In this document: one piece after another, positions 1,673 through 25,434 of the stretch
Layout: the number at the start of each line of letters is the position of its first letter
How positions within the stretch are numbered: the stretch's first letter is position 1
Origin: Niveibacterium umoris
GTDB lineage: Bacteria > Pseudomonadota > Gammaproteobacteria > Burkholderiales > Rhodocyclaceae
Reading direction: 5' to 3'
NCBI RefSeq assembly: GCF_014197015.1
Contig: NZ_JACIET010000002.1
Location: 620,001-684,000 of the forward strand
DNA length: 64,000 bases
Translations under genes and position numbers: made by a program
Notes under the pieces: generated by a model
What the model saw: only the letters and a program-made list of their open reading frames with translations
The model's database searches: none
Told to the model about the DNA's origin: nothing

Positions 1673-1709
1673 TTGATTTGATTGGTAAGTGCACTGGGGG
1701 CAGTCGAAG

Positions 1710-6630: not shown

Positions 6631-6640
6631 TTGTTTGCCG

Positions 6641-7414
6641 ATGAAACGGAAAACAAACAAAGGACCGTCTGCCGAGGTTGAGCAAGGCATCCGCAAGCTT
6701 GCCACCGTCGGCGGCCGACACGCGTACATGTACGACAGCCTAAAGGCGTCGGGAATCATCGCGTTGGAATCGCGACTTGAGCGAACCGCGGTGCAACTTG
6801 CTGACGTCGACCCGAACGTCCGTAGGGTCGTGGCCCAACCCTTCACGCTTGACGTTGAAACGGGCCAAATCTTTACGACACGCGAAGCGCTCCAGACGGC
6901 GAGGGAGGCGCGAAAGAAGACCGAGGCAACGAAGCGCGACTACACCCCCGACTTCAACTTCGGTTTGGTGTGGCGAGAAGTCGCGGTCGAGGCCAAGGAC
7001 GAGCGCTTCTTCGGCGACGCTGAGTACTGGAAGAAGGTCGAACGCGCGGCGCATATCTTGCGGACAGCGGGCAGGGGATTTGCGGTGGTGTGCTTCTCGC
7101 GCAAGGAGCTCGATGCTCTTGAATGGAATGCCGCCGTCCTGACTTCATTCCGTCATACCGCGACTGAATCACTCACGCCACGTGGCGTCGACGCCATCGC
7201 TGATTGTCTTGCCCACGGTGAGCGACCGCTGGCAGAGGTTCTGAAAGCGGCCGGCCTCTCAGTTCGTACGTCTCCCGGCCTGTTCCTTGATGGCGTGCTC
7301 CGAGCGGACCTCAAATCCAACCGGATATCGACGAACCTTATCGTTGAGTTGGCGCACGGAGACCTGTCCAGTCTTTCGCTCCTGCCTTTCGAACCAGGAC
7401 TGCTTGCGCCATGA
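6641..7414 (+). CDS. tnsA: TnsA-like endonuclease of a Tn7-like transposon
   Basis: A 257-residue protein. I use ATG 6641 rather than the in-frame TTG two codons upstream. It has the TnsA N-terminal nuclease pattern: E43/E47 in 'ALESRLER', 'YTPDF' with D104, and V-E-A-K with E117 and K119, i.e. the PD-(D/E)XK metal-binding set. In Tn7, TnsA cuts the 5' ends of the element and works in a complex with TnsB, so that the element moves by cut-and-paste. The C-terminal half matches the helical part that contacts TnsC in the Tn7 model. It overlaps tnsB by an ATGA. Divergence from Tn7 TnsA is large; it is closer in layout to the Tn6022-like group, where the equivalent is called tniC. Confidence 0.85.
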   Translation: MKRKTNKGPSAEVEQGIRKLATVGGRHAYMYDSLKASGIIALESRLERTAVQLADVDPNVRRVVAQPFTLDVETGQIFTTREALQTAREARKKTEATKRDYTPDFNFGLVWREVAVEAKDERFFGDAEYWKKVERAAHILRTAGRGFAVVCFSRKELDALEWNAAVLTSFRHTATESLTPRGVDAIADCLAHGERPLAEVLKAAGLSVRTSPGLFLDGVLRADLKSNRISTNLIVELAHGDLSSLSLLPFEPGLLAP

Positions 7415-9378
7415 GCCGGTATTTGCGCGCGGATATGCGTTTCGCAACGCCGAACGGTCCCCGGATTGTCATCAGTGTGCTGCAAGACGAAAAGCTGGTG
7501 CAGCTCTTCAATCCCGAGTCGAAGGAGACCGAGCTGTTGGGTTACCGGGATGTACGCAAGCACATCTCGGATGGCACGTTTGTCTTGCAGGAGAAGAATC
7601 CGATTGGGTCGGTCGTCAGTGCCACCGCGACGACGCCTGCACTCCTGCATCAGCACCACAACCTGCTGATAGTCGATGAACTGCTGCGACGAATTCGTAA
7701 GGGAGCTACGCCGCGTGCTGCCGTGTTGGCGTTGCAAACCAGCGGGCTTCAGGATGCCGACGGCAATGCAGTGCCGCTTTGCTCTAACCGCACGATGTTC
7801 CGTTTGTTGAGGCGGCGAATCGAGGGCAACAAAACGCTCCTGCCGCGGTTTGACCTTCGTGGAAATCGTGTCGGTCGATATCCGGCGCTGTTGGTGGACT
7901 TGATTCTCCAGCTCGTCGACGAGTTCTACGCCCAGCCGCAGTCGCGTATCAATTTGCAGCAAATCGCCTTTGCAGCGTCGCGACGCGGAAGCGACAGCGG
8001 ACTGCTCTCGCCGGGGGTATCTGTCACCTACAAGTTCGTCCGACGAATCGTTGTGACGATGTGGAACCCGGACCTCGATTTTCGGCGACTGGACTGGCGA
8101 ATTGCGCGGGCGGCCAAGGCGGTTGCGGCGGAGAAAATCTACGTTGCGAGCGCGCTCCAGCGGGTGGAGATGGATACGGTCAATCTGCCCTTTGTGTTGC
8201 GTGCACACCGCGTCATCTACACGACGGTCAATTTGATGATTGCAATCGACTGCGCAACGTCGCTTGTAGTCGGTTGGTGGTTCATGCTCGCGGCCCCCAC
8301 CACGGCAGACACCCTCAGTTGCGTGTCCCGCATCCTTTTCTCCAAGCGGCAGCTGCTATCAGACCTTGGTGTGGAGGCAACCGTGGACCCTTATGGGCTT
8401 TGCATTGAACTGGTTGTGGACAATGGCCCGGAGAACAAAGGGCCTCAGATAGACCGGCTCTCGACGATAGGCATCAACCTCACGCGAACGCCCGTCAACT
8501 CGCCCCAAAAGAAGCCCTTCGTCGAACGTATCAATCGCAGCTTGAAAGAGGCGCTTCAGACGCTGCCCGGCTGCACGCGCTTTAACGGAAAAGACGGTGC
8601 TCGTACGGAGGCCGCGCTTCACGACGCATTGATGACACCGCGTGAGCTCGAACAATGGATTGTTCGTTGGATGCACCAGAGCTGGGCACATCACGTCCTC
8701 CAACGATTTGTGACCGAGTCGTATCACACGGAAGAGTCCCCAGGGCTCACGCCCGCTGCGCGCTGGCAGTACTTCGAAAACACGTTGCCTCTGCCCTTGT
8801 CACCAAGGCGCGAAGACGTTGCTGCGCTGTCTTATCTGAAGGTCACGCGTAGCCTGAGTCCGAAGACCGGGATTCCGTTGGAGGGATTCCGCTTCAAAGG
8901 CGAGAACCTGCGCCGCCTGATTCAGGAGTACGGGCCCGATGCCGTCGTCGAGGTGTTCTACGACCCCAACGACTATCGGGTTGTTAAGGTGATTTCGCAG
9001 CGGTCGGGGGAATTGCTCACCCTTGTAAACACCGAGGCGCTGGCGGATGGCCCCGCCTACACCTTCAAGGAGTTCAAGGCGATAAAGGCTGGCAAGGCTG
9101 TCGAAGTCCGAGCGTTGCCGACGCATCCTCACGCTGAACTCTTTGACCGAGACCTTGCCGCCGCAGCGTTCAGCAAGCCGGCTGGCCGAGCCGCGAAGAA
9201 GGCCCAGCATCAGGCCGTGCGCGCTGAGCAGGCTGTTCGGCGAGCTGTCGAAAATCCGCTCCCGGTGACCTCACCGGCCCCGCTGGCGCCCTCGTCGCAC
9301 ATTTCCGAAGACGCCATTCCGTCGTTCACCGTCGCACGGTCCGCAGCAAAGTCTTCACGAGGACAGGCAAGCAAATGA
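7411..9378 (+). CDS. tnsB: TnsB-like DDE transposase
   Basis: A 655-residue DDE transposase of the Mu/Tn7/TniA class, catalysing 3'-end cleavage and strand transfer. The catalytic triad is visible: D255 in 'VEMDTVN', D337 in 'VVDNGPE', and E372 in 'PFVERINRS', with 34 residues between the second D and E. An N-terminal ~240 residues with helix-turn-helix-like stretches would bind the element ends. After the catalytic domain there is a Mu-type beta-barrel region. The last ~100 residues are basic and Ala/Pro-rich and may form the tail that contacts the ATPase. Start and stop both overlap neighbours by ATGA. Intact length and a complete triad indicate that it could be active. Confidence 0.93.
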   Translation: MSRYLRADMRFATPNGPRIVISVLQDEKLVQLFNPESKETELLGYRDVRKHISDGTFVLQEKNPIGSVVSATATTPALLHQHHNLLIVDELLRRIRKGATPRAAVLALQTSGLQDADGNAVPLCSNRTMFRLLRRRIEGNKTLLPRFDLRGNRVGRYPALLVDLILQLVDEFYAQPQSRINLQQIAFAASRRGSDSGLLSPGVSVTYKFVRRIVVTMWNPDLDFRRLDWRIARAAKAVAAEKIYVASALQRVEMDTVNLPFVLRAHRVIYTTVNLMIAIDCATSLVVGWWFMLAAPTTADTLSCVSRILFSKRQLLSDLGVEATVDPYGLCIELVVDNGPENKGPQIDRLSTIGINLTRTPVNSPQKKPFVERINRSLKEALQTLPGCTRFNGKDGARTEAALHDALMTPRELEQWIVRWMHQSWAHHVLQRFVTESYHTEESPGLTPAARWQYFENTLPLPLSPRREDVAALSYLKVTRSLSPKTGIPLEGFRFKGENLRRLIQEYGPDAVVEVFYDPNDYRVVKVISQRSGELLTLVNTEALADGPAYTFKEFKAIKAGKAVEVRALPTHPHAELFDRDLAAAAFSKPAGRAAKKAQHQAVRAEQAVRRAVENPLPVTSPAPLAPSSHISEDAIPSFTVARSAAKSSRGQASK

Positions 9379-10394
9379 AGCTCTCAAAATGGCTTCGACT
9401 CAACATCGACACCTTGGTCATCGAACATCCAGCCTTTGTGGCGGTGCGTCAGGCTATTCTCGATGCGGTGACCGATACCATCGACGGCCTGCCTTCCGAG
9501 GTATTGGTGCTGTTGGGCCCGACCCAAGCAGGCAAGTCGAAGATGCTGCGCACCATCGCTGAAGCGTATCCCCCTACAAGAATTGAGGGACGTCTTCAAG
9601 TTCTCGTGCTCTATATCAGTCTGCCACCGGGTGTCGCCCTTAAAGATTTGCCGAAGTACGTTATCAGGGCCCTGGGCATCCGACGCGGCGCCAAATTTCG
9701 GACCGCTGGAGAACTGTTCGGCGAGATGTGCGACTTGCTCAAAAACGCATCCGTTAGGGCAATTCTGTTTGATGAGGGTAACCATCTAGTTGATATCGGG
9801 CACCGCATTTTGCCCCGCCAAGCCGCTGATTGGTTTAAACACCTTAACGAGCTCGCCAATATCAGCATCGTAGTGGCAGGTATCCCGCGGCTGCGTGCGC
9901 TTCTCCAGCGCAACGAACAAGTGCGAGGACGCGCTCCGCGCGCCATCGAACTGCTGCCGTACCGATGGGACAGACGCGACGAACGATTGAACTTTGCGGG
10001 GTGTGTGCGTGCCTTTCTCGACCTCTTCGAGAACGAAGGCTGCATCGTCGAGATGACGATGGACGCTTTTGTGCGCTATGCCTACCTGGTGAGCGCGGGG
10101 CACGTGGGCTTATTGGCGCGCTTCTTCGTTGAACTGGCCAAGCCGCTCGACACACCACAGCCCATCACGCTGGCAGCGCTGCAAGCAGCGGCCTCGAAGC
10201 TCAATCCCCCGGGTGGCGTCGAGACGGCCCCATTCTCAACTCAACCACCCACAGACGATTTGCTGATGGAAGTCCTGTCCGCGGCGCTTGCAGAGAACGA
10301 CATCGTCCTCCCGCCGGACCCAGGTCTGGCCGAGGTCGGTCACTTGCGCAGCAAGATGCAACAGGCGCCAAGGAAGACCAGAGGCCGGAAATGA
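9375..10394 (+). CDS. tnsC: TnsC/TniB-like AAA+ ATPase, transposition regulator
   Basis: A 339-residue ATPase. Walker A is GPTQAGKS at residues 48-55, and Walker B with the acidic pair D133-E134 lies in 'AILFDEGNHLVD'. In Tn7 and related elements this protein forms the ATP-dependent link between the target selector (TniQ/TnsD) and the TnsAB transposase and enforces target immunity. The ~60 C-terminal residues beyond the AAA core are Pro/Glu-rich and probably flexible. Translation is coupled on both sides (ATGA at 9375 and at 10391). All motifs are intact. Confidence 0.92.
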   Translation: MKLSKWLRLNIDTLVIEHPAFVAVRQAILDAVTDTIDGLPSEVLVLLGPTQAGKSKMLRTIAEAYPPTRIEGRLQVLVLYISLPPGVALKDLPKYVIRALGIRRGAKFRTAGELFGEMCDLLKNASVRAILFDEGNHLVDIGHRILPRQAADWFKHLNELANISIVVAGIPRLRALLQRNEQVRGRAPRAIELLPYRWDRRDERLNFAGCVRAFLDLFENEGCIVEMTMDAFVRYAYLVSAGHVGLLARFFVELAKPLDTPQPITLAALQAAASKLNPPGGVETAPFSTQPPTDDLLMEVLSAALAENDIVLPPDPGLAEVGHLRSKMQQAPRKTRGRK

Positions 10395-12244
10395 GTCTGA
10401 TAGAGCTCTTCGAACCACGTCCGGACGAGGACGCTATTGGCTACTTGCGGCGGCTTGCGGGGCCGTCCGGCTACGCCGATTGGCGTGCGCTGGTGCGCAG
10501 CACCGGTATCAACCCTTCGCGAAATGCGTTGTGGAAGAACAAGGCGCATCTGACCCAATCGCTGGAGCTTGATGCCGTTTGGCTTGAACAGGTGATGCCG
10601 ACAGCGATGGACGGCGTGGGACTTCATGACCCGCAGTACCTGCGCGCTGGCGTCTCGCCCGTGTGTCCGGCCTGCTTGGCTGAATATGGTTACCTCAGGC
10701 GAGCCTGGCAACACATCTTCGTGGTGGGGTGTCCAGAGCACGACTGTCAGCTTCTCGACCACTGCCCCGATTGCGGTGAGCGCTTGCACGACGCGGCCTT
10801 TAGTTTCGAGCACTGCGAGTGTGGCTATGAATTGGCGTACGCCAAGACGCCGGGGCTGAGCGCGATGCACCGGTTCGTCAGCGCGCGACTGCAAGGCGAC
10901 ATGCGAACCATCGAAGGCGTTGCCGAACTCGGGCGACCGGAAGACTACAGGCTATTGGGGCCGCTGCTCTTTCAGCTCGCCGCGCGCTTGGACATTTCGT
11001 CGCGCATCAAGCCGAGCAAAATCGCGAAACCGAAGACCGTATCGGAAGCGGTGACGTTTCTTGATGGCACGCTGACCTTGTTCCACGACTGGCCGCGCGC
11101 CTTTGAAGCTCACGTGAAACAGCGGATTCGCGCGGGCAAGCCAAATGCCATGGGGTTGGCCAGTCGGCTCGGTCACTGGTACATGTCGCTCCAAGCGTTG
11201 TGTCGGGGGCAAGACTGCTTTGCCCCGGTCTGGCAGGCTTTCTCGGACGCGGTGTTTGATGCATTTGACGGCATGCTGCGCGGCGGTGGTGTGCTGAGGC
11301 CCTCTCCCCACAAGGTCCGCATGTTTCTCCCAGTGCAGGAGGCAGCGCGAGAACTTGGTGTGAGCAGTCCGACGCTCTCCAGCGCGATTGCCGGCGGCGA
11401 GGTCCATGCGCGGGCCAGTGAGCGCGGCACGCACTACACCGTGGCGATGATTGAGCGCACCGAAGTCAAGCGGGTGAAAGCTAGCCGCGAGGCTTGGTTA
11501 CCGGAATCGCGTGCGGCGGAGTTGCTCGGTGTGAGCGAGACTGTGCTTGAGAATCTGATTCGCGCCGGCTTGGTGCGCGTCGACACCACCTGGCGGTCGA
11601 CGTTTCTCAAGAGCGGCCCGGTCATGGCCGCCAGCCTCGACGAACTCTCTCATCGCCTTATCGGCTTCATCGAGCCCAGTCCGATTTTTGGCGAGACGCT
11701 CTCCTTCAATCAACTGACGGCACGCCGGACGCTCGACGGGAGGGCGCTCATCGCGTTGTACCAGGCCATCTTTGAAGGCCAGATTCGACCCGTCGGGCGC
11801 GACAGCGAGCATGGTCTGGGTGGATTGCTCTTTGCAGCCAATGAGGTGAAGCGCTATCTCGGGTCTGCCGCACTTTCAAGCGGTCTGACGCTGCTGCAAC
11901 TTGAACGCGCGACCGGTTGGAAGTACGAGGCGATTTCGCATTGGGCCTCGCTGGGGCTGCTTCGGATTGAGTCTGTCGAGCTTGCTGGGCGCCCGGCCCG
12001 GGTGGTGACGAGCGCAGCGCTGTGCGAGTTCCGCAGCCAGTGGGTTCCGGTGAGCGAACTCGCCGCATCGGTTGGGATGCCTGCAGCGAAGTTGGTGAGC
12101 ACCCTTGAGGGCCGAGGCGTGCCGGTGGAGGGTATGAAAGCGCTGCCCAACGGCACACGCCGCGGTGGTCTTGTGCCCATGGCTGCCCTCGCGCGCGCGC
12201 TCACCGCTCATGCGCCAGACGACGACCGGCGCGGGGTCGTGTGA
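10391..12244 (+). CDS. tniQ: TniQ/TnsD-like target-site selector
   Basis: A 617-residue protein. The N-terminal TniQ zinc domain has cysteines at 92/95, 114/119, 125/128 and 142/144, with the typical 'VCPACLAEYGYLRRAWQHIF' and 'CPEHDC' segments. The long C-terminus contains at least four helix-turn-helix-like or MerR-like modules, near residues 310-336, 368-397, 498-527 and 550-580 (for example 'WLPESRAAELLGVSETVLEN'). In TnsD, the C-terminal part reads a fixed chromosomal attachment site, so this long form suggests one preferred target rather than guide-RNA targeting. Short TniQ proteins of CRISPR-associated transposons lack such a tail. It overlaps tnsC by ATGA and the next gene by GTGA. 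Confidence 0.92.
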   Translation: MSLIELFEPRPDEDAIGYLRRLAGPSGYADWRALVRSTGINPSRNALWKNKAHLTQSLELDAVWLEQVMPTAMDGVGLHDPQYLRAGVSPVCPACLAEYGYLRRAWQHIFVVGCPEHDCQLLDHCPDCGERLHDAAFSFEHCECGYELAYAKTPGLSAMHRFVSARLQGDMRTIEGVAELGRPEDYRLLGPLLFQLAARLDISSRIKPSKIAKPKTVSEAVTFLDGTLTLFHDWPRAFEAHVKQRIRAGKPNAMGLASRLGHWYMSLQALCRGQDCFAPVWQAFSDAVFDAFDGMLRGGGVLRPSPHKVRMFLPVQEAARELGVSSPTLSSAIAGGEVHARASERGTHYTVAMIERTEVKRVKASREAWLPESRAAELLGVSETVLENLIRAGLVRVDTTWRSTFLKSGPVMAASLDELSHRLIGFIEPSPIFGETLSFNQLTARRTLDGRALIALYQAIFEGQIRPVGRDSEHGLGGLLFAANEVKRYLGSAALSSGLTLLQLERATGWKYEAISHWASLGLLRIESVELAGRPARVVTSAALCEFRSQWVPVSELAASVGMPAAKLVSTLEGRGVPVEGMKALPNGTRRGGLVPMAALARALTAHAPDDDRRGVV

Positions 12245-13422: not shown

Positions 13423-14440
13423 GGATTCCGCACTCTGGCGCCTGGTGACCGCAAGGCCTTACCCGCGCATCCATGTGCTGTCGGACTTGCATCTCGAAAC
13501 CGGGCCTTACGCCCTGCCCGATGGGCTGGGCTTTGATGTGCTCGTTGCCGCGGGTGACATCGGACCGGTCGAGGAAGCGGTGGCGTGGCTTGCGGCCATC
13601 GGGAAGCCGGTCGTGTATGTCCTCGGCAATCACGAGTTTTGGGGGCGTCAGTTTGATGAAGTGCTGCCGGCAGCGCGTGCGGCGGCGCGTGGCACGCAGG
13701 TCCACGTCCTGGAGCGCACTCACGTAGTGATTGCGGGCGTGCGTTTCCTCGGAGCGACGCTGTGGACTTCGCTTGGCGAGTGGCACCCTAACCTCGTTCA
13801 TCAGGCGCATCGCCAGATGCGCGACTACGCTGAAATTGGCGCACGGAGCTGGTATAGCTCTGCGCGCAACCTTGCCTTCTTTCGTCGACAACTAAAGGCG
13901 GCAGGTCTGCATGTACCGTCGCAGGACGCGTGCAGCCGGCTGTCGCGCTTTCATCCCGTCATTTCGTATCAAGCGCACCTGCGCGCCGTTGCATGGCTTC
14001 AGCGGGAATTGGCGAAGCCGTTCAAAGGTCCAACGGTAGTGGTTTCTCATCACGCCCCGAGCTTTCGTTCGCTCGAACGCGCTGGCCTCGGGGCAGACGT
14101 CCTCGACCCCATTACCTGGGGTCAGCGAGACGACCGACTCGTCCGGGTCGCGTGCTATGCAAGCCCTCGGACCGTGAGTCGAGAATCGTGGCGTCACGTC
14201 GCAGTGTGGGTCCACGGACATCTTCATCATGCGCTGGATTTCGTTGCTGATGGCACGCGGGTCGTCTGCAACCCGAGGGGTTATGCGCTCAAGCCGTTCA
14301 CTGAACGGGACATCGAGGCGTTTTCGCTCTTCGGGGTTCCGCTGACCGAGGACGATGTGGCCCGCCGCAAAGGTTTGCTTCGAGAGCAGCCGTATCGTGG
14401 CGATGCTGTAGCGTCAATCCGCACGCCATCGTCGAGCTAA
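13412..14440 (+). CDS. Calcineurin-like metallophosphoesterase coupled to the tns operon
   Basis: A 342-residue protein from the ATG at 13412, 11 bp inside the previous gene; a longer frame upstream lies entirely within that gene and is rejected. All metallophosphatase motifs are present: D25-x-H27 in 'VLSDLHLE', G48-D49, G72-N-H-E75, a 'VVSHHAPS' block, and G269-H-L-H272. Members bind two metals and hydrolyse phosphomono- or diesters, including nucleic acids and cyclic nucleotides; the substrate cannot be read from the sequence. Being encoded in the tns transcript, it could act on DNA ends, on a signalling nucleotide, or as cargo defence. No signal peptide is visible, so it is cytoplasmic. 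Confidence 0.88.
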   Translation: MADKDSALWRLVTARPYPRIHVLSDLHLETGPYALPDGLGFDVLVAAGDIGPVEEAVAWLAAIGKPVVYVLGNHEFWGRQFDEVLPAARAAARGTQVHVLERTHVVIAGVRFLGATLWTSLGEWHPNLVHQAHRQMRDYAEIGARSWYSSARNLAFFRRQLKAAGLHVPSQDACSRLSRFHPVISYQAHLRAVAWLQRELAKPFKGPTVVVSHHAPSFRSLERAGLGADVLDPITWGQRDDRLVRVACYASPRTVSRESWRHVAVWVHGHLHHALDFVADGTRVVCNPRGYALKPFTERDIEAFSLFGVPLTEDDVARRKGLLREQPYRGDAVASIRTPSSS

Positions 14441-15648: not shown

Positions 15649-18600
15649 ATGGCTACCGAAATGGAAGGCTCGACTACACCCAAAGCCGTCATCGAACATA
15701 TCAGGCGGTACGAGTTTGGCATCGGAGCCGAGCTCGTTGGAGATGGCCGGGAAGTCGTCGACCGAATGGTTCGAAAATACCGGAATCTCTTGGAGACGGT
15801 CGCAAAGGACCTCAACTCAAAAGAGTCGCACTTCTTGCTCGAGTTGCTCCAAAACGCCGATGACAACCGCTACGCTCCCGGTGTCGCTCCGTCTCTTGCA
15901 TTTCGATTGACCTCTAGAGAAATCGTAGTCTCGAACAACGAAATCGGCTTTTCGTCTGACAACGTTCGTGCGCTTTGCAGCGCTGGCGAGAGTTCAAAGA
16001 AGAACAAGGTCGGTTACATCGGAGAGAAGGGAATCGGCTTCAAGTCGGTGTTCAAGGTCACGGACACGCCGGAGATTCACTCCAATGGCTATCACTTCCG
16101 GTTCGACTTGACCGACCCCAACGACCAGTTGGGCTATGTCGTTCCCCATTGGGTGGCCCCCCGGGCAGAAGACGATGAGAGAGTCACCACTGTCGTTCTT
16201 CCGGCTAGGGCAGGAAGCGAATTCTCGCCAGAGCTTCTGGGTGACATCAACGCGACGTTGCTCCTGTTTTTGGAGAAACTTCGCCTGCTCGAAGTTCACA
16301 CGAACGATGGCACCTTCCGCTATGAGCGAGCGGATGACAACTTCCTCAGCGCGCTGACAGTAGTCAGTAAGCGTGCTGGTGAGGCTGAGTCGAGAGAGAC
16401 GTCGACGTACCTCCGCTCAAAGTACTCGCTTGACATGGCAGACATCGTTGAGCCGAAGCGGGAGAAAGTTGAACGTGTTGACGTCGTGCTTGCCTTTCCC
16501 CTTTCAGACGACGGCGCTGCGGCACCGGTTGAGGGGTGCCCGACCTATGCCTTTCTTCCCATCCGTAGTTTCGGTTTCTCTTTTTGCATCCAGGCGGACT
16601 TCGTCCTTATCTCCAGTCGCGAGGGCGTACACGAGGAACTGCCTTGGAATCGACGTCTGCGCGATTCAATTGCTCCGGCGTTCGTAGCCGCAGTCGAGGA
16701 GTTCAAGCGGCATCCGGCACTGGCGCTGAGCTACCTGCGGTTCTTACCCAAAAAAAGTGATGTCGTGGACCCGTTCTTCGCCCCTGTCGTGGCGCAGACC
16801 GTTGACGCGCTTAAGGAGGTCGCCTGCATTCCTGTTGAAGGAGGTGGTTGGCGCAAACCGTCGAAGGTGTTGCTGGCATCTGATGCAATCCGCGAACTCT
16901 TTACTTCGGCCGACGCAGTGACGCTGTTCGGGGCTGACTACCCGACGCCTGGTTTCGTGGCACCGGAAGGCGGCCTTGAGCGATTGTCATGCCGTACGCT
17001 TTTCATCCAGGAGGTGCTTGAGCTCTTCGGCAAGCGCAGCGAATGGCTAAAGGGTAAGGACTTAACGTGGAAGGTTCGGTTCTACGAGTACATTGCAAAG
17101 TCGCCAATGCGGGACGACTACGTCAAAGAAATGTTGAAGCTGCCTTGCATTCCTGCCGCAGGTGGGAAGATGGCAACGCCGCAGAGCGACGCAGTCTTCT
17201 ATCCCTTGAGTTCAGCTGAGAAGTACGGCTTCGAGCACCTGCTTACCGTTGTTGATGGCGAGTTCCATGCTCGGGCTCGTGAGATATCCCCGGATGTACT
17301 TGCTCTCCTGGATAGCCTTGGGGTTCAACACGACGAGCCGTACGAACTCGTCCAGCACCACGTTTTGCCACACCACACACCCGACGGGTTTAAGAAGGCG
17401 GACCGAGTAGCGCTTCTTGGGCATATCCGCTATCTCCGCGATAAGCTCGACGCCTATCTAGCCAAAGCTCGTGATGGTCAGTCAGAAGAAACAGCCCTGA
17501 AGACACTTCGCACAGGGTTGTACTTGTGCAACAAGTATGAAGAAGATGGTTCCTGGTACTTTGGCCGGCCAGACTCAATTTACTTGGGCAAAGAATATCG
17601 TCCGGCCTTCGATATTGAAGGCTTGCTAGGCGACCAGCTTCCCCCTAAGAAGTTGTTGTCCGAAAAGTACATCGTCAAGTCGGCGGGTAGGTCTGACAAG
17701 GAGGAAACTGCAGCTGACCTTCAGCGGTGGCGTGAGTTCTTCATTCGAATCGGGGTGCACGACGCTCCACAGGTCGTCCCTCAGGTCACGGGTGATGTTG
17801 CTTGCAGCGACGAACTCTCTGCGCTGCTGACGGCTGAAGACAAAGCGGTGCGGAGGGAGACTCTTGAGTGTTTGAACAAGCACTGGAGTCGATACAGTCA
17901 CCTGACGACATATCAAGCTCGTTCAGGGAGGTCGGTTTTCCAGACGCAGCGGACGCAGTTCGCGGCGGCGTTGCGAGCAACTGCCGCACCGACCCGACGT
18001 CGAGTGACGGTGCCGCTGGAGCAAACCTATCACGACCGTCCCGAGGTGAGTGACCTCCTGGGCGGAAACCTTACGTACGTGGATGCTGACGTTTCGGATG
18101 AGCGCTTCCTTGCTTCGTGCGGCATCACTTACAAGGTGGATGCCAACGCGTGTCTCAAGCGGCTCCGCCAGATTCGCGCCGAAGGCGGCACTACCAAAGA
18201 GCAGATACGACGCATCTACCGACGGCTTGAGGACCTCTGGAACATCGACGGGCCCACGATTAAAGCCGCCTTCGCAAGCGAAGCGCTCATCGCTCTTGGG
18301 CGAGGTGACAGCCTCACATGGGTTCTACCGAGCGATGCGTGTTGGCGTCCAACGAACGTGCGCTTCCTCGATACACGGCATCCCCCGCTGAGTACGCAGT
18401 ACGTCGACTACTCGAATTTCTTTACCCGCTTGCTGCATGTTCCACCCGAACTGGAACTGACCAAGTGGGTAGACGCGCTCGCGGAACTTGAGGGGGTGGA
18501 GTCGAAAAGTGAGCGCGAAGACATTGCCCGCGTTATCTACAGACGCCTGAGTCGCGAACTCGCCTTGCAGTCATCTACCAATCCGCCTAGCCCACCGCCC

Positions 18601-20445
18601 GCGTGGCTGGGGCGGTTCGAGTCGCAGCAGCTCTTTCTTAGTCACCGCGGAAAACTTGTTGCGAACTCTGCTGCGCTGTACTTCAACGATGCGCCTGAAT
18701 ACGCCGCGCTCTTCAAGGACTCACCGGACGTTTCCTTGTTGACCCTTGCGCGGGATGATTGGTCCGCAGTCGAACTACTTCTCAACAAGTCGGGAGTCCG
18801 AACTCTTTCTTCGTCGTTAACGATAGCAGTCGCACCTGGCATTGAGGGGACATCTAGCGAGCGACTCACTCAAAAGCTGCGGGACATGTTCGTGTGTTTC
18901 GCTCGCGTGGTTTATGAGCATAACCAACAGCGCTTTGAGACGGCCATCAAGGAGAAGCTGTTTGAAGAGCTGCATAACCTTGAGGTTGTCATCGTTCAGG
19001 ACTTGGTGCTTGATGTAACGCTTGGTGCGTCTGTGCGCAGGACGACCGGTCCAGTGGCTCGACGAGGAGCTGAACTCTTGCTCCACGCGGAAGCCCCTTC
19101 GCATTTGGACCAAGTGGCATTAGAAGTCCGCAAGCTTTTGCGACTGCCAGTTGTGCTCACCGACATCATCAGCCGGGTGTTGATTTCACCGACAGTGCAG
19201 GACGCGGAAGCGTACCTCCGACTGCGTAACGTCAGCGCACTCCCGCCTGAGGAAACGCTCGCGCTGGACCGAGCATTCGGTCTTGCACCGCCAGCGCTAG
19301 CAGTGCCGCCTAGTCAGGAGAGCGAGGACACCGAGGTCAAGACGACTGCACTAACAGCTCCCGCGACGGAGCCTGCTGCAACGGTTCCTAGCCCAGCATC
19401 ACTGCCACTGGGCGCCGCAGGTACTGAGCCTCGTCCGCCTGCAGATGAGGGTCTGGACAAGAACTTTGCGCCGCTCTCCAAGTCGGCAGCAGGCGATATA
19501 TGTTCACGCGCAGGTTCTGCCGGAAACAGTTCGTCGCAACTCGTCGCGAGCGCCACGGACGGCAGCAGTTCACCAAGGTGTGACTCCAGTGTGCCTACTG
19601 CATCTACGCCCACGCCGAAATCGCCTGGCACTGCTAGGAATGGAGGTGCTGCAGGCGGACAGGCGTCCGAAGGTGCGTACACGCCAAGAGGCAGTCGGAA
19701 TGGCGCTTCCGAGGGAGGACTAGCGCCAGCACAGGTCAGTACGGGGACTTATCGCGGTGGTCCACAAGTAGGACATCGAGCGCAAAAGGCCAGGCCAGCG
19801 CGAACGAAGAGAGGACGGCTGCTTAGCTACGCAGACACCTCCGACCCAACGAAGCCGTCGGTACCGCCAGACGCGGAGTCGAACTCCGAGGCCGCAAAAT
19901 GGAATCTCGCTGTTGAACAAGCTGCGGTCACCTATTTTCTTGAGAAGGCTGCGCCGCAGTGGAAGTCTGCAGAAGTGATGCCACCCGGAAACGCCGGCTT
20001 TGACGTCAAGGCCATCGCCATGGATGGCGGCGAGGAATACATCGAGGTTAAAGGTCAGGGTGGCGCTTGGACCGAGGAAGGGGTTGCGTTAACACCCACC
20101 GAACTCGCCAAGGCGTTCTCAGCCGGAAGGCGGTATTGGCTCTGCGTAGTCGAGCATGCTACTGACGACAACCGTCGTCAGCTGTTCCTGGTGCAGGACC
20201 CCTTTGGGCTAACGACGCAGTTTCGCTTCGACAAGGGTTGGAAGGCAATGGCCAAGACGGTCGCCGCAAAGCCCCTTTGCCCGGAGGTCGGCATGTTTGT
20301 CACCATTGAGAATGATGGGAAGGGGAGAATCACCAAAGTGAAGGGCAGCGGGCGCTTCAAGAAACTGCACATCGAGTTCGCGGACGGGAGGCTGTCCTTC
20401 AGCAAGGTATTCAACCCCTCAACGATGACGCTGAGCTACGAGTAA
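15649..20445 (+). CDS. Sacsin/HSP90-like ATPase with C-terminal DUF3883 domain, candidate defence protein
   Basis: About 1598 residues from ATG 15649; the longer frame begins at 15553 and the start is not fixed by a ribosome-binding site. The N-terminus is a GHKL/sacsin-type ATPase: 'LLELLQNADDNRY' near residue 64 is the N-box with the metal-binding Asn, and 'GEKGIGFKSVFKV' near 125-137 is the G1 box. A long helical middle follows. Residues ~1225-1400 are a Ser/Pro/Ala-rich, low-complexity linker. The end is a DUF3883 domain with Y-I-E-V-K-G near 1463, a likely PD-(D/E)XK-type nuclease core. This ATPase + DUF3883 architecture occurs in bacterial defence islands. The next gene starts 2 bp after the stop, so they form one operon. 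Defence function is inferred. Confidence 0.88.
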   Translation: MATEMEGSTTPKAVIEHIRRYEFGIGAELVGDGREVVDRMVRKYRNLLETVAKDLNSKESHFLLELLQNADDNRYAPGVAPSLAFRLTSREIVVSNNEIGFSSDNVRALCSAGESSKKNKVGYIGEKGIGFKSVFKVTDTPEIHSNGYHFRFDLTDPNDQLGYVVPHWVAPRAEDDERVTTVVLPARAGSEFSPELLGDINATLLLFLEKLRLLEVHTNDGTFRYERADDNFLSALTVVSKRAGEAESRETSTYLRSKYSLDMADIVEPKREKVERVDVVLAFPLSDDGAAAPVEGCPTYAFLPIRSFGFSFCIQADFVLISSREGVHEELPWNRRLRDSIAPAFVAAVEEFKRHPALALSYLRFLPKKSDVVDPFFAPVVAQTVDALKEVACIPVEGGGWRKPSKVLLASDAIRELFTSADAVTLFGADYPTPGFVAPEGGLERLSCRTLFIQEVLELFGKRSEWLKGKDLTWKVRFYEYIAKSPMRDDYVKEMLKLPCIPAAGGKMATPQSDAVFYPLSSAEKYGFEHLLTVVDGEFHARAREISPDVLALLDSLGVQHDEPYELVQHHVLPHHTPDGFKKADRVALLGHIRYLRDKLDAYLAKARDGQSEETALKTLRTGLYLCNKYEEDGSWYFGRPDSIYLGKEYRPAFDIEGLLGDQLPPKKLLSEKYIVKSAGRSDKEETAADLQRWREFFIRIGVHDAPQVVPQVTGDVACSDELSALLTAEDKAVRRETLECLNKHWSRYSHLTTYQARSGRSVFQTQRTQFAAALRATAAPTRRRVTVPLEQTYHDRPEVSDLLGGNLTYVDADVSDERFLASCGITYKVDANACLKRLRQIRAEGGTTKEQIRRIYRRLEDLWNIDGPTIKAAFASEALIALGRGDSLTWVLPSDACWRPTNVRFLDTRHPPLSTQYVDYSNFFTRLLHVPPELELTKWVDALAELEGVESKSEREDIARVIYRRLSRELALQSSTNPPSPPPAWLGRFESQQLFLSHRGKLVANSAALYFNDAPEYAALFKDSPDVSLLTLARDDWSAVELLLNKSGVRTLSSSLTIAVAPGIEGTSSERLTQKLRDMFVCFARVVYEHNQQRFETAIKEKLFEELHNLEVVIVQDLVLDVTLGASVRRTTGPVARRGAELLLHAEAPSHLDQVALEVRKLLRLPVVLTDIISRVLISPTVQDAEAYLRLRNVSALPPEETLALDRAFGLAPPALAVPPSQESEDTEVKTTALTAPATEPAATVPSPASLPLGAAGTEPRPPADEGLDKNFAPLSKSAAGDICSRAGSAGNSSSQLVASATDGSSSPRCDSSVPTASTPTPKSPGTARNGGAAGGQASEGAYTPRGSRNGASEGGLAPAQVSTGTYRGGPQVGHRAQKARPARTKRGRLLSYADTSDPTKPSVPPDAESNSEAAKWNLAVEQAAVTYFLEKAAPQWKSAEVMPPGNAGFDVKAIAMDGGEEYIEVKGQGGAWTEEGVALTPTELAKAFSAGRRYWLCVVEHATDDNRRQLFLVQDPFGLTTQFRFDKGWKAMAKTVAAKPLCPEVGMFVTIENDGKGRITKVKGSGRFKKLHIEFADGRLSFSKVFNPSTMTLSYE

Positions 20446-20447
20446 CC

Positions 20448-22154
20448 ATGGCACGCATGCTTCCTGAGTTGACCGAAGAGCAGCTGAAAGGTCTGAAGTC
20501 ACAGGCCGAGGCCCGCTTCTACGAAGAGTGTCGGAAACAGTTGCCTGACGATGTTCTCGTCATCTATTCAGTCAACTGGATATATCGGGACGGCCGGGGT
20601 TGGCTATTCGAGGGGGAGGCGGATTTCACCATCGTCGTACCGCAAAGCGGTGTGTTCGCGATTGAGGTCAAAGGCGGAGGAGTGTCGTTTGATTCTGTCA
20701 CTGGGCGTTGGCAGTCCATCGACCGAAACAAGGTAATACACGACATCAAGGACCCGTTCAGCCAAGCAGCTGGTGAGCGCCACGCCCTCCGGGACCAACT
20801 TCTTGGACATCCCCTCTGGCGTCGGTGGCGAGGCTCCCGAGTGACTCTGGGCCATGCGGTGATGTTGCCGGACATTCACGACGCACAACAACTCGTTGCG
20901 CCAAACCGTCAGCGACCAATCATCGGCGTCGATACGGACATCAGCGCGCTTGTGCCGTGGATGGCACAGCTGCAGGCCTTCTGGACACAAACAAATGAGA
21001 GCCCACTCGGCGCCCACGGCGTTCAGTTGGTCGAGGAAATCCTGTGTAGCTCTGTAGAGGTTCGACCGGCCATGCGAGCCGTTCTTGATGCTGCTGAGCA
21101 AGCGCGCATACGGCTGACGACCAATCAAGCAAAAGTCCTCCGCATACTGGGAGGTCGTAAGCGTGCGGTCATTGCGGGTGGAGCCGGCACAGGCAAGACC
21201 CTGATAGCGGTCGAAAAGGCAAGGCAGCTCGCGGAGATGGGACTGTCAGTCTTACTGCTTTGCTACAACAGACCACTCGCGGGAGCTCTGGCCGCAAGTG
21301 TTATTGACGAACCCCGCATCACGGTACTCAGTTTCCATCAGCTCTGCGATAGACGCATCGCTGAGGCTCGCAAAGCGGCCGGCGTGGACCTGCTTGCAGA
21401 AGCGCAGGAAGCATTCCCAGGCCACGATGAGAAGCACCTCTTCGAGGTCCAAATGCCTTTCGCGCTAGCTCGGTCGAACGAAGTTCTTGACGCGAAGTAT
21501 GACGCGCTGGTTGTCGATGAGGCACAGGACTTCAGCGACGACTACTGGTTCTCGATAGAGGAATTGCTCCGCGAACCTGAGCAAGGGTTCCTGTACATCT
21601 TCATCGACGAGAACCAAGCGCTCTACCGCAAGCATGCCAACTTGCCGGTGAAGGACGAGACCTACCGTCTTCTCGCAAACTGCCGCAACACTGTCCCCAT
21701 TCATCGAGCTGGCTACGCGTTCTACAAGGGTGATGCCATTGACGACCCCGACCTGCTTGGAGACCCCGTCACTCGAATGGCCGCCGACGACGACGGCCAA
21801 CAAGCGGTTGCAATAGCAAGCGTCGTGAAAAAGCTTCTCGCTGATGCGGTCCAACCAACTGAAATTGCGGTTCTGTTGGCCAAGCGACCGAAGGCTCGAT
21901 TGTATGGATTGCTTCAGGACCAAAAGCTATCGGGTGGGCACTCTTGGACTATTGAGGCCCCGGGACCGCATCGAGCAGTACTCGTCGACACTGTGGGCCG
22001 TTTCAAGGGCTTGGAGGCGCCGGTGGTCATCCTTTGGGTCGGCGACGAGGTTATTGACGAGAAACAGTGGGAATACCTTTACGTTGGGGCCACTCGCGCG
22101 AAGTCACTCCTCTACGTGGTCGGCTCTGCAAGAGCAGTGGATGCGTTCGCCTAG
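20448..22154 (+). CDS. NERD nuclease-domain superfamily 1 (UvrD-like) helicase
   Basis: A 568-residue protein, ATG 2 bp after the previous stop. The N-terminal NERD (nuclease-related) domain has D59 in 'GEADFTIV' and E73-V-K75 in 'VFAIEVKGG', the PD-(D/E)XK-like set. A superfamily 1 helicase follows: Walker A GGAGTGKT at 244-251, DEAQ at 357-360 in 'ALVVDEAQDFSDDYW', and a C-terminal 'KGLEAPVVILW' and 'YVGATRAK' as motifs V-VI. It would unwind and possibly cut DNA, with the large ATPase/DUF3883 protein as partner. Two putative nucleases and two NTPases in a two-gene operon fit a phage-defence module. A good terminator follows at 22220. Confidence 0.88.
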   Translation: MARMLPELTEEQLKGLKSQAEARFYEECRKQLPDDVLVIYSVNWIYRDGRGWLFEGEADFTIVVPQSGVFAIEVKGGGVSFDSVTGRWQSIDRNKVIHDIKDPFSQAAGERHALRDQLLGHPLWRRWRGSRVTLGHAVMLPDIHDAQQLVAPNRQRPIIGVDTDISALVPWMAQLQAFWTQTNESPLGAHGVQLVEEILCSSVEVRPAMRAVLDAAEQARIRLTTNQAKVLRILGGRKRAVIAGGAGTGKTLIAVEKARQLAEMGLSVLLLCYNRPLAGALAASVIDEPRITVLSFHQLCDRRIAEARKAAGVDLLAEAQEAFPGHDEKHLFEVQMPFALARSNEVLDAKYDALVVDEAQDFSDDYWFSIEELLREPEQGFLYIFIDENQALYRKHANLPVKDETYRLLANCRNTVPIHRAGYAFYKGDAIDDPDLLGDPVTRMAADDDGQQAVAIASVVKKLLADAVQPTEIAVLLAKRPKARLYGLLQDQKLSGGHSWTIEAPGPHRAVLVDTVGRFKGLEAPVVILWVGDEVIDEKQWEYLYVGATRAKSLLYVVGSARAVDAFA

Positions 22155-22219: not shown

Positions 22220-22247
22220 AGCGCCCGTCGTCGGGCGCTCTTGTGTT
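22220..22247 (+). terminator. Rho-independent terminator after the NERD-helicase gene
   Basis: The stem AGCGCCCG (22220-22227) pairs with CGGGCGCT (22232-22239) across a TCGT loop, followed by CTTGTGTT. It closes the ATPase/helicase operon. Confidence 0.75.
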
Positions 22248-22528: not shown

Positions 22529-22682
22529 GGTGTGACACTAATTGGGTAAATGTGTGCCAATTTTTGGTTCCGGAATCCTCTGTAGGCCTTGCGGCTGCTA
22601 GGGGGCCTGTGCCACCAATTGAGTCTCGCTACAGAACTGCGCAGGGTCACAATGAGTGACGTAGCTGGCGCCAATTGTTGAT
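22529..22682. repeat. Cluster of CCAATT-containing repeats, possible transposon-end binding sites
   Basis: CCAATT or its complement occurs four times in ~150 bp of otherwise GC-rich DNA. One is in TGTGACACTAATTGGG (22530-22545, inverted); the others are in TGTGCCAATTTTTGG (22553-22567), TGTGCCACCAATTGAG (22608-22623) and GGCGCCAATTGTTGA (22667-22681). Three share a TGTGCCA-like lead or a close variant. The rest of 22248-22725 shows no gene. Multiple transposase-binding repeats at an element end are typical of Tn7/Tn402-like transposons. No matching set was found upstream of tnsA within the window. Confidence 0.35.
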
Positions 22683-22725: not shown

Positions 22726-23112
22726 CTATTTGCTGCGTCTTGGCCCACCGACATTTGTTCGCACGATTGCATCAAGATCCCGACTGTGGAACAGGTCGAT
22801 GCATTTCATCGAGTTGTACGAGGACTTGGTCGATCCCGCGTACTCGCGCTTGATAAACGTCACGACTAGCTTGTCGATTGCCTCGTAGGTCTCGATCGGC
22901 TGATGACCAAACTCCAGGTAGGCCGCCGCGGTGGCATTTGCGTCGTTGCGCGACGCTTCGTCCGGGGCGATCTGGGCGAGACAGCGGCTGAGCGCCCAAT
23001 TTTTGAGCAAAGTCTTCTGGGAGTACTTGGCGGTCGTGGGCTCCTGGGCCACAGCAGTGGTCGTCGTCCCTAAAGTCGCCAAACACAGGCAGACGATGAT
23101 CCTTGGGGTCAT
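22726..23112 (-). CDS. tai4: Tai4-family immunity protein to a type VI amidase effector
   Basis: A 128-residue protein whose ATG overlaps the stop of the amidase gene (ATGA at 23109-23112). The first ~22 residues are a signal peptide ending 'TTTTAVAQ', so it acts in the periplasm, where Tai4 proteins bind and block Tae4. The body has the family pattern 'KTLLKNWALSRCLAQ', 'DANATAAAYLEFG' and a C-terminal 'SMKCIDLFHS' with conserved cysteines. Length agrees with Tai4 proteins. It protects the cell from its own and sibling Tae4. Position directly after the effector gene confirms the pairing. Confidence 0.9.
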   Translation of the reverse strand: MTPRIIVCLCLATLGTTTTAVAQEPTTAKYSQKTLLKNWALSRCLAQIAPDEASRNDANATAAAYLEFGHQPIETYEAIDKLVVTFIKREYAGSTKSSYNSMKCIDLFHSRDLDAIVRTNVGGPRRSK

Positions 23113-23624
23113 TGGAGAATCCAGAGTGAGGCCGTTTCTGGAGTGAACGGGCCATTGTCAGGATCATGCATCAGATGGCAGGAATCCGAGCACCGGCTGC
23201 CGTCCCAGAGCGTGACATGCCCGCGGGCGTTCGACCAACCGTGGCCTTTGACGACGAGGATGCCTCGCAGGCCCGCGAAGTCCGAAGGTTGGGGGGAGGC
23301 GACCGTTTGGTCAGGCTTCCCAAGTGTACGCGTGAGGTAATCGAGCATCTCGTTCACGCGGTACCGATACAGACTGGAATCGGCGCCGCTCACTACCTCG
23401 TAGCCGGCTCCTCGGGTGATGGGGCGTCCGGACTTGTTCAAGACGTAGCTCATCCGGATCGGGCAAGCATTTTGGAAGATGCCCGATTCGATGTTCTGTT
23501 GCACCTTGCCGCCGATCTTTTTGCCGACTTGATCGACCGGCACGTTGATCTCGAGAAACGCGGCCCAAGCCGTGTGGAAAGTTGGTCTGTCCAAGGGGTT
23601 GCCTCCTGTGTATGCGAAAAGCAT
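23109..23624 (-). CDS. tae4: Tae4-family type VI secretion amidase effector
   Basis: A 171-residue peptidoglycan amidase that cuts the D-Glu/mDAP crosspeptide after delivery into a rival's periplasm. The NlpC/P60-like catalytic set is visible: C54 in 'NACPIRMSYVLN', H136 in 'RGHVTLWDG' with D141 near it, and the pair C145/C149 that forms a disulfide in the family. There is no signal peptide, as expected for a type VI cargo. The start ATG at 23624 lacks a good ribosome-binding site, and the real N-terminus may lie a few residues inside, near the conserved 'RPTFHTAWAAF'. The immunity gene overlaps its end. No type VI structural gene adjoins it. Confidence 0.92.
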   Translation of the reverse strand: MLFAYTGGNPLDRPTFHTAWAAFLEINVPVDQVGKKIGGKVQQNIESGIFQNACPIRMSYVLNKSGRPITRGAGYEVVSGADSSLYRYRVNEMLDYLTRTLGKPDQTVASPQPSDFAGLRGILVVKGHGWSNARGHVTLWDGSRCSDSCHLMHDPDNGPFTPETASLWILQ

Positions 23625-23780
23625 AGTTCAGGTGGGCGACCGCGAGAGGACAAACACTTCACGGTGGGCTGTCTTAGTGTGGTCTTCAGCGCAACCTGGC
23701 GACCCGGTAAGTCATCTTGAGACTCACGCTTGGCGTTAGCGTCACGACGGGACGGTGGAAAACGTCTCCGGACGTGCCGT

Positions 23781-23835
23781 TCGGAAAATTTCACTAACGG
23801 TGCCCAGATTTTCGGGGAATTTCATTAATGGTGGC
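23781..23835. repeat. Two imperfect 24-bp direct repeats, probable IS-end remnant
   Basis: Copies at 23781-23804 and 23812-23835 agree at 19 of 24 positions (core AATTTCA-TAA-GGTG), spaced 31 bp start to start. Such tandem sites near an end are typical of IS21-like elements, but no transposase gene is nearby. Confidence 0.4.
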
Positions 23836-23972
23836 GCAGACGGAACGCCCTGTGACACAGAAACCGAAAAAACCAAATGAAATCAGTGATCAACGTTGCA
23901 CTTTCGGTGACATCCAACAGAACTGTCGGGTGCCACAGATAGTGAGAGGGTCCGACGGATCCCAGACATACA

Positions 23973-24000
23973 AACGCCCGGGTTTCCCGGGCGTTTTCTT
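23973..24000 (+). terminator. Strong Rho-independent terminator
   Basis: AACGCCCGGG (23973-23982), loop TTT, CCCGGGCGTT (23986-23995), then TTCTT. It lies downstream of no recognisable + strand gene, so it may be left over from a lost or short transcript. Confidence 0.7.
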
Positions 24001-24030
24001 TGGGCGCATCCAAGTCGATCAGATGTCTGT

Positions 24031-24159
24031 TTCAAGCTGGTGCTCGATACGCATCTCAACGAAGTCGTCGCCAACGAGTTCGCGCAGGATTTCGTGAAAC
24101 GCGCAGTCAACGGCTGCTTTCTTGAAGACAAGCCTGATCGCCGGGCGGTGCCGTATTGA
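24031..24159 (+). pseudogene. Coding-like gene remnant (C-terminal fragment)
   Basis: The frame ending TGA at 24157-24159 reads about 42 residues including 'KLVLDTHLNEVVANEFAQDF' and ending 'DKPDRRAVPY', which looks like a real protein C-terminus. No start codon or plausible N-terminal part precedes it; the strong terminator at 23973 is just upstream. It is likely debris from an insertion or deletion. The family is not recognised. Confidence 0.3.
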
Positions 24160-24168
24160 GCCCGTCGC

Positions 24169-25278
24169 TCAGCCACCGAAGAGTTTCTTGAGGCCCTCGC
24201 CGATTCCGCCGGCGGCTTTGCCGACGCCGCCGACAACGCCCTGCAGGCTGATTCCCAGCCCTTGCGCGACCGAGGCGGCTACCCGCGTCGCCATCATTTC
24301 GTTGAGCGAGAACTTCGGGTCGTCGAGGTTGCCCTGCAGTGAGAAGTCGACACGAACCCGGCCATCGCGATCCTTCAACGAACTGATCACCAGCGAACGC
24401 GGCATGCCCAGGAAGCTGTTGCCATGTTCGGCCAGCTCAAGGTCGCTGAGCGTCAGTTGCCCGGGCGCATTGAGCTTGCGCCGCGCTACTTTGGCGTGAA
24501 TGTTCAGATCCAGCGTGCCGCGCCGCACGCCGGTCTCGGCCGCCTTGATCAGGTAAGGCTCTACCGTATGCAGATCGACCCCGGCGAGCTTCAGCGTCAG
24601 GTCGAGGTCGCGCGTGGCGAGCGTGATATCGCCATCCAGCGACAGGCTGCCTTTGCGTTGGGGCCCTTCGACGCTGCCATCCAGATGCAGGTCGCTGTGT
24701 GCATCCAGCGCTGGTAGCGCGAGGCTGGTGAAGCGTCCGTTGAGTGCGCGTAGCGCGATGCAGTGCGGCTTGCGCGCGACGCTGGCGTCGCAGTAGTCGA
24801 GCGCCGAGTCCGCCAGCGAGATCGCCTCAATCGTGATCCGTCGCGCCGCCGCCGCGGGCGCCGATTGGCTGTTCTCGTCTGCCTCGTCGTGTGGCGCCTC
24901 AAGCACTGCGGGCAACACGCGCAAGTTGCCTTTGCGGGTACGCAGCATCGACAGGTAGGCGGCGTCGAGCGCCACTTCGTGGATCACGATGTCGTGGGAA
25001 AACAGGCTCAGGAGCGAGGGCGACACACGGATGCTGCGTGCGCGCAGTTCCTCAGGCACGGGCCAGTCGGGTGCTGAACGCACCGCTACGTCGTGCAAGG
25101 TCAGCGCATTCCAGCCCACCTCGATCGCGCCGACCGTGCTGCGCTCGCCGAGTGCCGATTCCACTTCGCTCTTCAGTCGGGCAACCGCAAAGTGGAACCC
25201 GACCGGCAGCGCCGCGAGCAAGAGCAGCAACGCGACGAGCGCGCCAAGGAGGATGCGGGAGCGAAGCGGGCGAGACAT
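24169..25278 (-). CDS. DUF748/AsmA-like inner-membrane-anchored protein
   Basis: A 369-residue protein with one N-terminal membrane anchor (about residues 8-28, 'ILLGALVALLLLLAALPVG') and a large periplasmic region of repeated beta strands. The text 'LTLHDVAV', 'IVIHEVALDAAYLS' and later 'DLDLTLKLAGVDLHTVEPY' has the rhythm of DUF748/AsmA proteins, which form long beta grooves thought to carry lipids between membranes. It ends in a Gly-rich tail with 'LKKLFGG', as in DUF748 proteins. Length is short for DUF748 (often over 900), so it is a compact version. It stands alone between the remnant strip and a response regulator. Confidence 0.8.
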   Translation of the reverse strand: MSRPLRSRILLGALVALLLLLAALPVGFHFAVARLKSEVESALGERSTVGAIEVGWNALTLHDVAVRSAPDWPVPEELRARSIRVSPSLLSLFSHDIVIHEVALDAAYLSMLRTRKGNLRVLPAVLEAPHDEADENSQSAPAAAARRITIEAISLADSALDYCDASVARKPHCIALRALNGRFTSLALPALDAHSDLHLDGSVEGPQRKGSLSLDGDITLATRDLDLTLKLAGVDLHTVEPYLIKAAETGVRRGTLDLNIHAKVARRKLNAPGQLTLSDLELAEHGNSFLGMPRSLVISSLKDRDGRVRVDFSLQGNLDDPKFSLNEMMATRVAASVAQGLGISLQGVVGGVGKAAGGIGEGLKKLFGG

Positions 25279-25387
25279 TCTGGCAACTGCGGTGAAGCAG
25301 GAAAGTAGCGGACTGCCGTGATTTTACGCCTGCCCCATCTGGCCGGCGGGCAGCAAGCGGGTGGCGGGTGACGCGGAGCCGATTCCG

Positions 25388-25412
25388 AAAACAAAAGGGG
25401 CCATAAGGCCCC
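25388..25412 (-). terminator. Rho-independent terminator of the response-regulator gene
   Basis: Read on the minus strand: GGGGCC, loop TTAT, GGCCCC (25412 down to 25397), followed by TTTTGTTT. It lies 22 bp beyond the stop of the response-regulator gene. Confidence 0.85.
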
Positions 25413-25434
25413 TCGAAATGCGGTGGAGCAGAGA

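Follow-up and report, generated by a model that had tools for sequence, protein, structure and literature searches.

A TmtA (Tiamat) homolog paired with a NERD nuclease-helicase gene in a Tn7-like transposon: a candidate two-component Tiamat variant

Tiamat (Millman and colleagues, 2022) is a defense system that is treated as a single gene, encoding the protein TmtA. Published listings give no known mechanism for it (PMC12926258, PMC10482375), and the PADLOC collection represents it by models PDLC03964-03972. Another described protein, VcSduA, carries GHKL and PD-(D/E)xK parts on one chain and requires both activities for phage defense (PMC12137116). Here we describe a TmtA gene of Niveibacterium umoris that lies directly upstream of a gene for a NERD nuclease-superfamily 1 (SF1) helicase. 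The window analyzed is a 64,000-nucleotide stretch of contig NZ_JACIET010000002.1 (positions 620,001 to 684,000), and feature coordinates within it are collected in Table 1. On the basis of sequence comparisons, we propose with moderate confidence that the pair is a two-component variant of Tiamat, carried as cargo of a Tn7-like transposon, in which an ATP-gated nuclease and an SF1 helicase-nuclease would act against invading DNA.

By its profile match, the first gene is full-length TmtA. It matches PADLOC model PDLC03966 with 1293 bits (E 0), residues 42-1573 of a 1630-amino-acid frame aligning with positions 2-1651 of the 1655 in the profile, and seven further PADLOC TmtA models match at E 1e-10 or better. 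An earlier, sequence-only reading of this DNA had found no named defense system to fit the pair, a view that this match overturns for the first gene. The frame is open from a TTG codon at 15553; homologs begin at a place matching the ATG at 15649, which is the conserved start and the one chosen in that reading. From N to C terminus, the protein consists of a sacsin/Hsp90-like GHKL ATPase, a long middle region, a DUF3883 nuclease core, and a probable UvrD-type Tudor tail. The sacsin domain (PF25794) and NOV_C (DUF3883, PF13020) both exceed their Pfam gathering scores, and NCBIfam model NF047352 (P_loop_sacsin) matches at 75.7 bits (cut-off 50). The GHKL N-box reads E65-LLQ-N69-ADD. Its E and N, the GIGF of the G2 box, and the D and E-x-K of DUF3883 are invariant in 12 TmtA homologs. 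An E-V-K-G motif, earlier placed near residue 1463, is present at residues 1466-1469. DUF3883 has been termed a novel restriction endonuclease (REase) domain (PMC3710099); the element order predicted here, with low confidence, is alpha-beta-beta-beta-alpha-beta.

The best PADLOC model for the second gene is RTasNERD-Hel (reverse transcriptase-associated NERD helicase), which matches over the whole length with 201 bits, followed by a generic NERD+UvrD model (88 bits). Pfam NERD (PF08378), UvrD_C_2 (PF13538, E 9.6e-10), and AAA_19 (E 5.7e-8) all score above gathering. With these matches and the located motifs, the domain make-up given in the sequence-only reading (GHKL with DUF3883, then NERD with SF1) stands, as do all three of its NERD residues. 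The NERD D and E-x-K are kept in all 17 other homologs except a paralog in the same genome, which lacks the E-x-K. No NCBIfam equivalog exceeds its cut-off for either protein, and no solved structure is related to either by sequence. A distant helicase paralog (∼27% identity; L053:5254-6903 in G000:C1, and loci L010-L016) is widespread in the genus; the copy in this genome adjoins a RecC-like gene, and its E-x-K position reads EQR.

The two genes are intact, on the same strand, and separated by a 2-bp gap, as had been reported. A terminator-like hairpin follows them. Its T-tail is weak, and in this region hairpins of this kind are no more frequent than in shuffled sequence. No sigma-70-type promoter match was found from 15100 onward.

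The pairing recurs in other genomes. A scan with the helicase as query, in one genome per species, recovered seven relatives at 55-81% identity (loci are cited by L numbers and genomes by G numbers). Five of the seven have a complete TmtA directly upstream (TmtA identity 38-75%). In a sixth (L004), a contig end cuts the locus and the TmtA C terminus is retained upstream of the helicase; in the last (L009), the upstream protein is an AAA_11/12 helicase instead. TmtA is also upstream of a 57%-identical helicase in G699 (L050) and at 40-43% helicase identity on a Sphingomonas naphthae plasmid (L017) and in G240 (L035), G579 (L051), and G282 (L036), the last retaining just a DUF3883-end remnant. 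Overall, TmtA is directly upstream of 11 of 12 helicase relatives at ≥40% identity, whereas this is true for none of 11 at ≤35%. The sequence-only reading had made its case depend on the pair being conserved together across genomes, and this is what we observe. The junctions are overlaps of a few bases in L006-L008 and elsewhere gaps of 1-5 bp or longer overlaps. Order and orientation are the same in several proteobacterial groups, on an alphaproteobacterial plasmid, in a Leptospirillum metagenome-assembled genome, and in unrelated mobile contexts; conservation between the pairs extends to the ATPase, NERD, DUF3883, and Walker motifs. No relative was found in viral contigs, and E. coli genomes gave no DNA match, close or distant; phage records gave just one distant helicase match and one weak TmtA match. 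We found no report of the pairing in the open-access papers searched, and it is probably new to the literature.

The two genes also share a history. For the seven main-clade loci, the TmtA and helicase trees have the same topology, ((L050,(window,L003)),(L005,(L008,(L006,L007)))); every fork is well supported in the TmtA tree, and several are moderate or open in the helicase tree. The ratio of nonsynonymous to synonymous polymorphism (pN/pS) is 0.16-0.18 for the helicase and 0.25-0.27 for TmtA. As judged from these comparisons, TmtA and the SF1-NERD helicase are shown to be co-inherited and both under purifying selection, with their catalytic motifs intact. Because the TmtA proteins of L017 and L051 fall within PADLOC clade PDLC03969 (1279 and 2295 bits), the pairing spans two TmtA clades, PDLC03966 and PDLC03969. 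A third clade shows a related arrangement: at L032, a TmtA of PDLC03972 is followed by a different, 710-amino-acid UvrD-type helicase that carries no NERD domain. The TmtA of L021 has a UvrD helicase and a large helicase on the opposite strand. Since UvrD-type helicases lie near TmtA at both L032 and L021, SF1 helicases recur beside this family.

That the genes are two independent defense functions sharing an island and a transcript by chance is very unlikely. The TmtA and NERD helicase families do occur apart, but chance adjacency is negligible because each is found in few of the ∼400 genomes sampled per search. The 11 of 12 adjacency, the fixed order and orientation in diverse lineages and unrelated mobile contexts, and the common tree topology also argue against it. 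A possible, if somewhat doubtful, alternative is that TmtA makes up the whole defense system, with the NERD helicase as a dispensable addition (a backup nuclease or a processing enzyme, for example) that widens or strengthens its action. Related NERD helicases are indeed swapped among DISARM-like UvrD/SNF2/DUF1998 operons, methyltransferase-Vsr-like loci, and the AAA_11/12 helicase locus, and TmtA proteins of other clades lack an adjacent NERD helicase. The tight coupling, the congruent trees, and the involvement of two TmtA clades nevertheless argue for a lasting functional link.

Several observations weigh against a two-component system. At L033 TmtA stands alone and at L021 it has no NERD helicase next door, and the close helicase of L009 has a different partner; neither gene is therefore strictly dependent on the other. 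Most loci were found with the helicase as query, so the frequency of helicase-less members in this TmtA clade is poorly sampled. TmtA-first searches were run with 570-amino-acid pieces of the protein. In 395 genomes of the order, they returned two clade members, those of the window and G699, with the helicase in both; six weaker matches (28-30% identity, frames of ∼1040-1130 amino acids) came from genomes with no close helicase. The structural models are a further weakness. AlphaFold gave a predicted confidence (pLDDT) of 49 for TmtA residues 1-1190, which include the ATPase, and 53 for the C-terminal 224 residues with DUF3883, too poor to be used for the ATPase half, middle region, and nuclease core. 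Foldseek matches to the ATPase half were led by Hsp90, TRAP1, and HtpG, none with E < 0.05, and are not counted as proof.

At L009 (positions 3-4218), the helicase is 72% identical to one that is paired with TmtA. Its partner is an AAA_11/AAA_12 helicase, and the contig starts inside the partner gene. This locus probably represents a partner swap.

The sole well-predicted part of the C-terminal model is the last 54 residues of TmtA (block pLDDT 72-90). The best Foldseek matches to this barrel are the C-terminal Tudor domains of UvrD, UvrD1, and PcrA (probability 1.00, E 0.03-0.1). VIA-align superimposes it on the PcrA Tudor with Z 8.0 and a root-mean-square deviation of 1.8 over 52 of 53 residues, compared with Z values of 6.4 or less for unrelated barrels. 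PF21196 (PcrA_UvrD_tudor) is the top Pfam match in five of eight tails, from both clades, at 15.7-19.7 bits against a cut-off of 23.9. A profile built from the tails matched no Tudor among PDB sequences, and the assignment thus rests on structure together with sub-threshold Pfam matches. By these models, the tail is probably a PcrA/UvrD-type Tudor domain. It is absent from the TmtA proteins of L032 and L033, and the NERD helicase stops right after its last motif, with no Tudor domain of its own. The titles of structures 6yi2 and 7egs indicate that UvrD binds RNA polymerase through its C-terminal Tudor. No report of the TmtA tail was found in the literature searched.

The pair had been placed beside a Tn7-like transposon in the sequence-only reading. 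It lies inside the transposon, as the last cargo before the right end. The element is 35,078 bp long (contig 607556 to 642633) and is bounded by terminal inverted repeats, TGTAGCGAGAC(C/T)CAATT(A/G), with inner repeats, TGTGNCACNAATTG, and a 5-bp target duplication. The matching inverted end, at contig 607556 (window -12444), also carries GAACT and is 5 bp beyond the gyrB stop codon (L055, G000:C2:607550-607605). The insertion call rests on the terminal repeats and target duplication because the fetched loci of relatives contained no gyrB for an empty-site comparison. The text of two Tn7 surveys makes no mention of gyrB, and this gene may be an undescribed attachment site. The transposition genes are supported by PADLOC TnsB (34 bits) and by Pfam TniB (PF05621, E 1e-16) and TniQ (PF06527, E 1.3e-11); TnsA is named by position only.

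Tn7-like transposons carry many defense systems (PMC8649781). Other cargo of this one includes a DpdE/DrmD-type helicase gene (702 bits) and, with weaker matches, type IIG-like, GmrSD-like, and HNH genes. In other genomes, the pair adjoins tyrosine integrases (L005, L006) and has as neighbors Gabija (L006), HerA (L008), a Lamassu-like gene (LmuB-like; L007), and restriction genes. From TmtA homology and these neighbors we infer a defense role, which agrees with the operon-like pairing and defense context claimed previously. The pair could instead be a chaperone or DNA-repair module from which the transposon or the host gains. A GHKL protein with a UvrD-like helicase does resemble mismatch repair, and the sacsin domain is Hsp90-like. 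However, TmtA is a reported anti-phage family, and the sparse distribution, mobile contexts, and defense neighbors make this explanation highly improbable.

The proposal that the pair is a two-component Tiamat variant draws on the full-length TmtA match, the 11 of 12 adjacency, the congruent trees, the pairing in two clades, the conserved catalytic residues, and the pN/pS values. The SF1 helicase at L032, the defense neighbors and cargo, and the VcSduA precedent add to it. In this mechanism, the GHKL module would dimerize on ATP. Through the long middle region of TmtA, it would recognize an invader, either by the invading DNA or by a phage protein on that DNA, and this recognition would license the DUF3883 nuclease to cut. 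The partner helicase would then load at the cut and unwind the DNA, which its NERD nuclease would degrade. The toolkit would be the GHKL ATPase, PD-(D/E)XK nuclease, and SF1 helicase of MutL-MutH-UvrD, here turned against invading DNA, and the Tudor tail would probably dock TmtA on RNA polymerase or on the helicase partner. VcSduA shows, by analogy, that GHKL control of a PD-(D/E)XK nuclease in phage defense has precedent (PMC12137116).

Given the helicase, DNA is the favored target. A bolder version, which we consider unlikely, is that TmtA and the helicase form one MutL-MutH-UvrD-like machine. In it, a GHKL clamp carrying its own nuclease, docked on RNA polymerase by the Tudor domain, would inspect transcribed foreign DNA and cut it for the helicase-nuclease to degrade. 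If true, Tiamat would be a transcription-coupled DNA restriction system. Alternatively, TmtA might respond to phage by turning both its nuclease and the NERD helicase against the DNA or RNA of the host, so that the cell stops growing. For BREX and Dnd systems, NERD and other nucleases have been put forward as suicidal co-effectors (PMC12839542, PMC10853773), and abortive infection is the mode of action of two-gene ATPase-nuclease systems such as WonAB (PMC12137116). The fusion of the nuclease to a helicase suggests degradation of particular DNA rather than general toxicity, however, and abortive infection seems rather improbable here.

The helicase-nuclease traveling with TmtA and the UvrD-like tail point to DNA as the target and name both residues and a partner, so that the pairing offers a concrete route to how Tiamat works. 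These results also suggest that, in this lineage, surveys that identify Tiamat from TmtA only may overlook a gene that the system needs.

Table 1. Positions of the gene pair, its domains, and transposon features in the window
Feature	Coordinates	Strand	Basis
TmtA (Tiamat) homolog, 1598 amino acids	15649..20445	+	PADLOC PDLC03966; Pfam SACS and NOV_C
GHKL ATP-binding motifs (E65/N69/D71; GEKGIGF 125-131)	15826..16128	+	Pfam SACS E 1.4e-12; NCBIfam NF047352
DUF3883/NOV_C, PD-(D/E)XK-type nuclease core (D1452...E1466-V-K1468)	19912..20172	+	Pfam E 3.8e-11
C-terminal Tudor-like barrel, residues 1543-1596, nearest to PcrA/UvrD C-terminal Tudor	20275..20436	+	Model; Foldseek; VIA-align; sub-cut-off Pfam
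NERD nuclease and SF1 (UvrD/RecD-like) helicase, 568 amino acids	20448..22154	+	Pfam; PADLOC RTasNERD-Hel
NERD domain (D59, E73, K75)	20499..20810	+	Pfam E 9.8e-8; motif E73-V-K75
SF1 helicase core: Walker A GGAGTGKT (244-251), DEAQD (357-361), C-terminal motifs	21114..22121	+	Pfam; motif location
Terminator-like hairpin AGCGCCCG-TCGT-CGGGCGCT	22220..22239	+	Sequence match; hairpin in RNA fold
Tn7-like right end: terminal TGTAGCGAGACTCAATTG ending at 22633; inner repeats TGTGNCACNAATTG at 22531 and 22608	22531..22633	-	
GAACT target duplication, right side	22634-22638		Same GAACT at left end
Tn7-like transposition genes: likely TnsA 6635-7414, TnsB 7411-9378, TnsC/TniB 9375-10394, TniQ 10391-12244	6635..12244	+	

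Other genes surround the pair in the window. Within the transposon, 1689-4192 holds a possible type IV restriction pair, in which the genes for a GmrSD-like DUF262 protein and for an HNH nuclease overlap by 4 bp. TniQ is followed by two long overlapping frames (12241-14440), of which 13172-14440 encodes a calcineurin-like phosphoesterase and 12241-13422 has no family match. A type VI secretion cluster (23109-29932) with a Tae4 amidase effector, VgrG, and NlpC/P60 flanks the transposon closely on its right.

Helicase relatives at 29-35% identity sit in other operon types. At L019, L020, and L069 (and in part L071), the NERD helicase accompanies UvrD, another helicase, and DUF1998; at L037 and L038, it accompanies cytosine-methyltransferase-like and Vsr-like genes, which were recognized by eye and not by profile; and at L072, it accompanies a giant DEAD/DEAH helicase. 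This pattern suggests that one NERD helicase family is a module common to Tiamat, DISARM-like, and methyltransferase-Vsr-like systems. The cargo of another Tn7-like set (L052:4274-12583; TnsABC-TniQ by appearance) includes a methyltransferase-like gene and a NERD helicase of 31% identity.

Among known systems, the second gene resembles the DRT-associated RTasNERD-Hel over its whole length; no reverse-transcriptase match occurs among the genes around the pair, and its partner is TmtA. Gabija membership was rejected, as no GajA is present in the pair and GajB matches are weak (≤29 bits) and in the helicase core. Matches to AbiO (34.5 bits) and Nhi (29.4 bits) are not full length, the best stretch being confined to the helicase part. 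DISARM-like/YprA-family operons (L019, L020, L069) encode, late in the operon, a NERD-SF1 helicase homologous to this one (30-33% identity), but its partners there are UvrD, another helicase, and DUF1998, whereas here the partner is TmtA; DUF1998 and SNF2/UvrD helicases are absent beside the pair.

The likeness to MutL-MutH-UvrD is one of working parts only, extending to the UvrD-type Tudor. No MutL C-terminal or MutS-like part was found, the nuclease is fused to the ATPase, and no membership is claimed. VcSduA and other Shedu proteins with a GHKL N terminus share with TmtA the presence of a GHKL ATPase and a PD-(D/E)XK nuclease on one chain. They differ in that VcSduA has DUF4263 in place of DUF3883 and no helicase partner, and the TmtA middle region is much longer; no DUF4263 match occurs in the pair, where Pfam finds NOV_C instead. 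The closest relative is Tiamat itself, with which this locus shares a full-length TmtA profile match, intact sacsin-type GHKL motifs, and a C-terminal DUF3883 with D...ExK. What sets it apart is that TmtA is tightly linked to, and co-inherited with, a NERD helicase.

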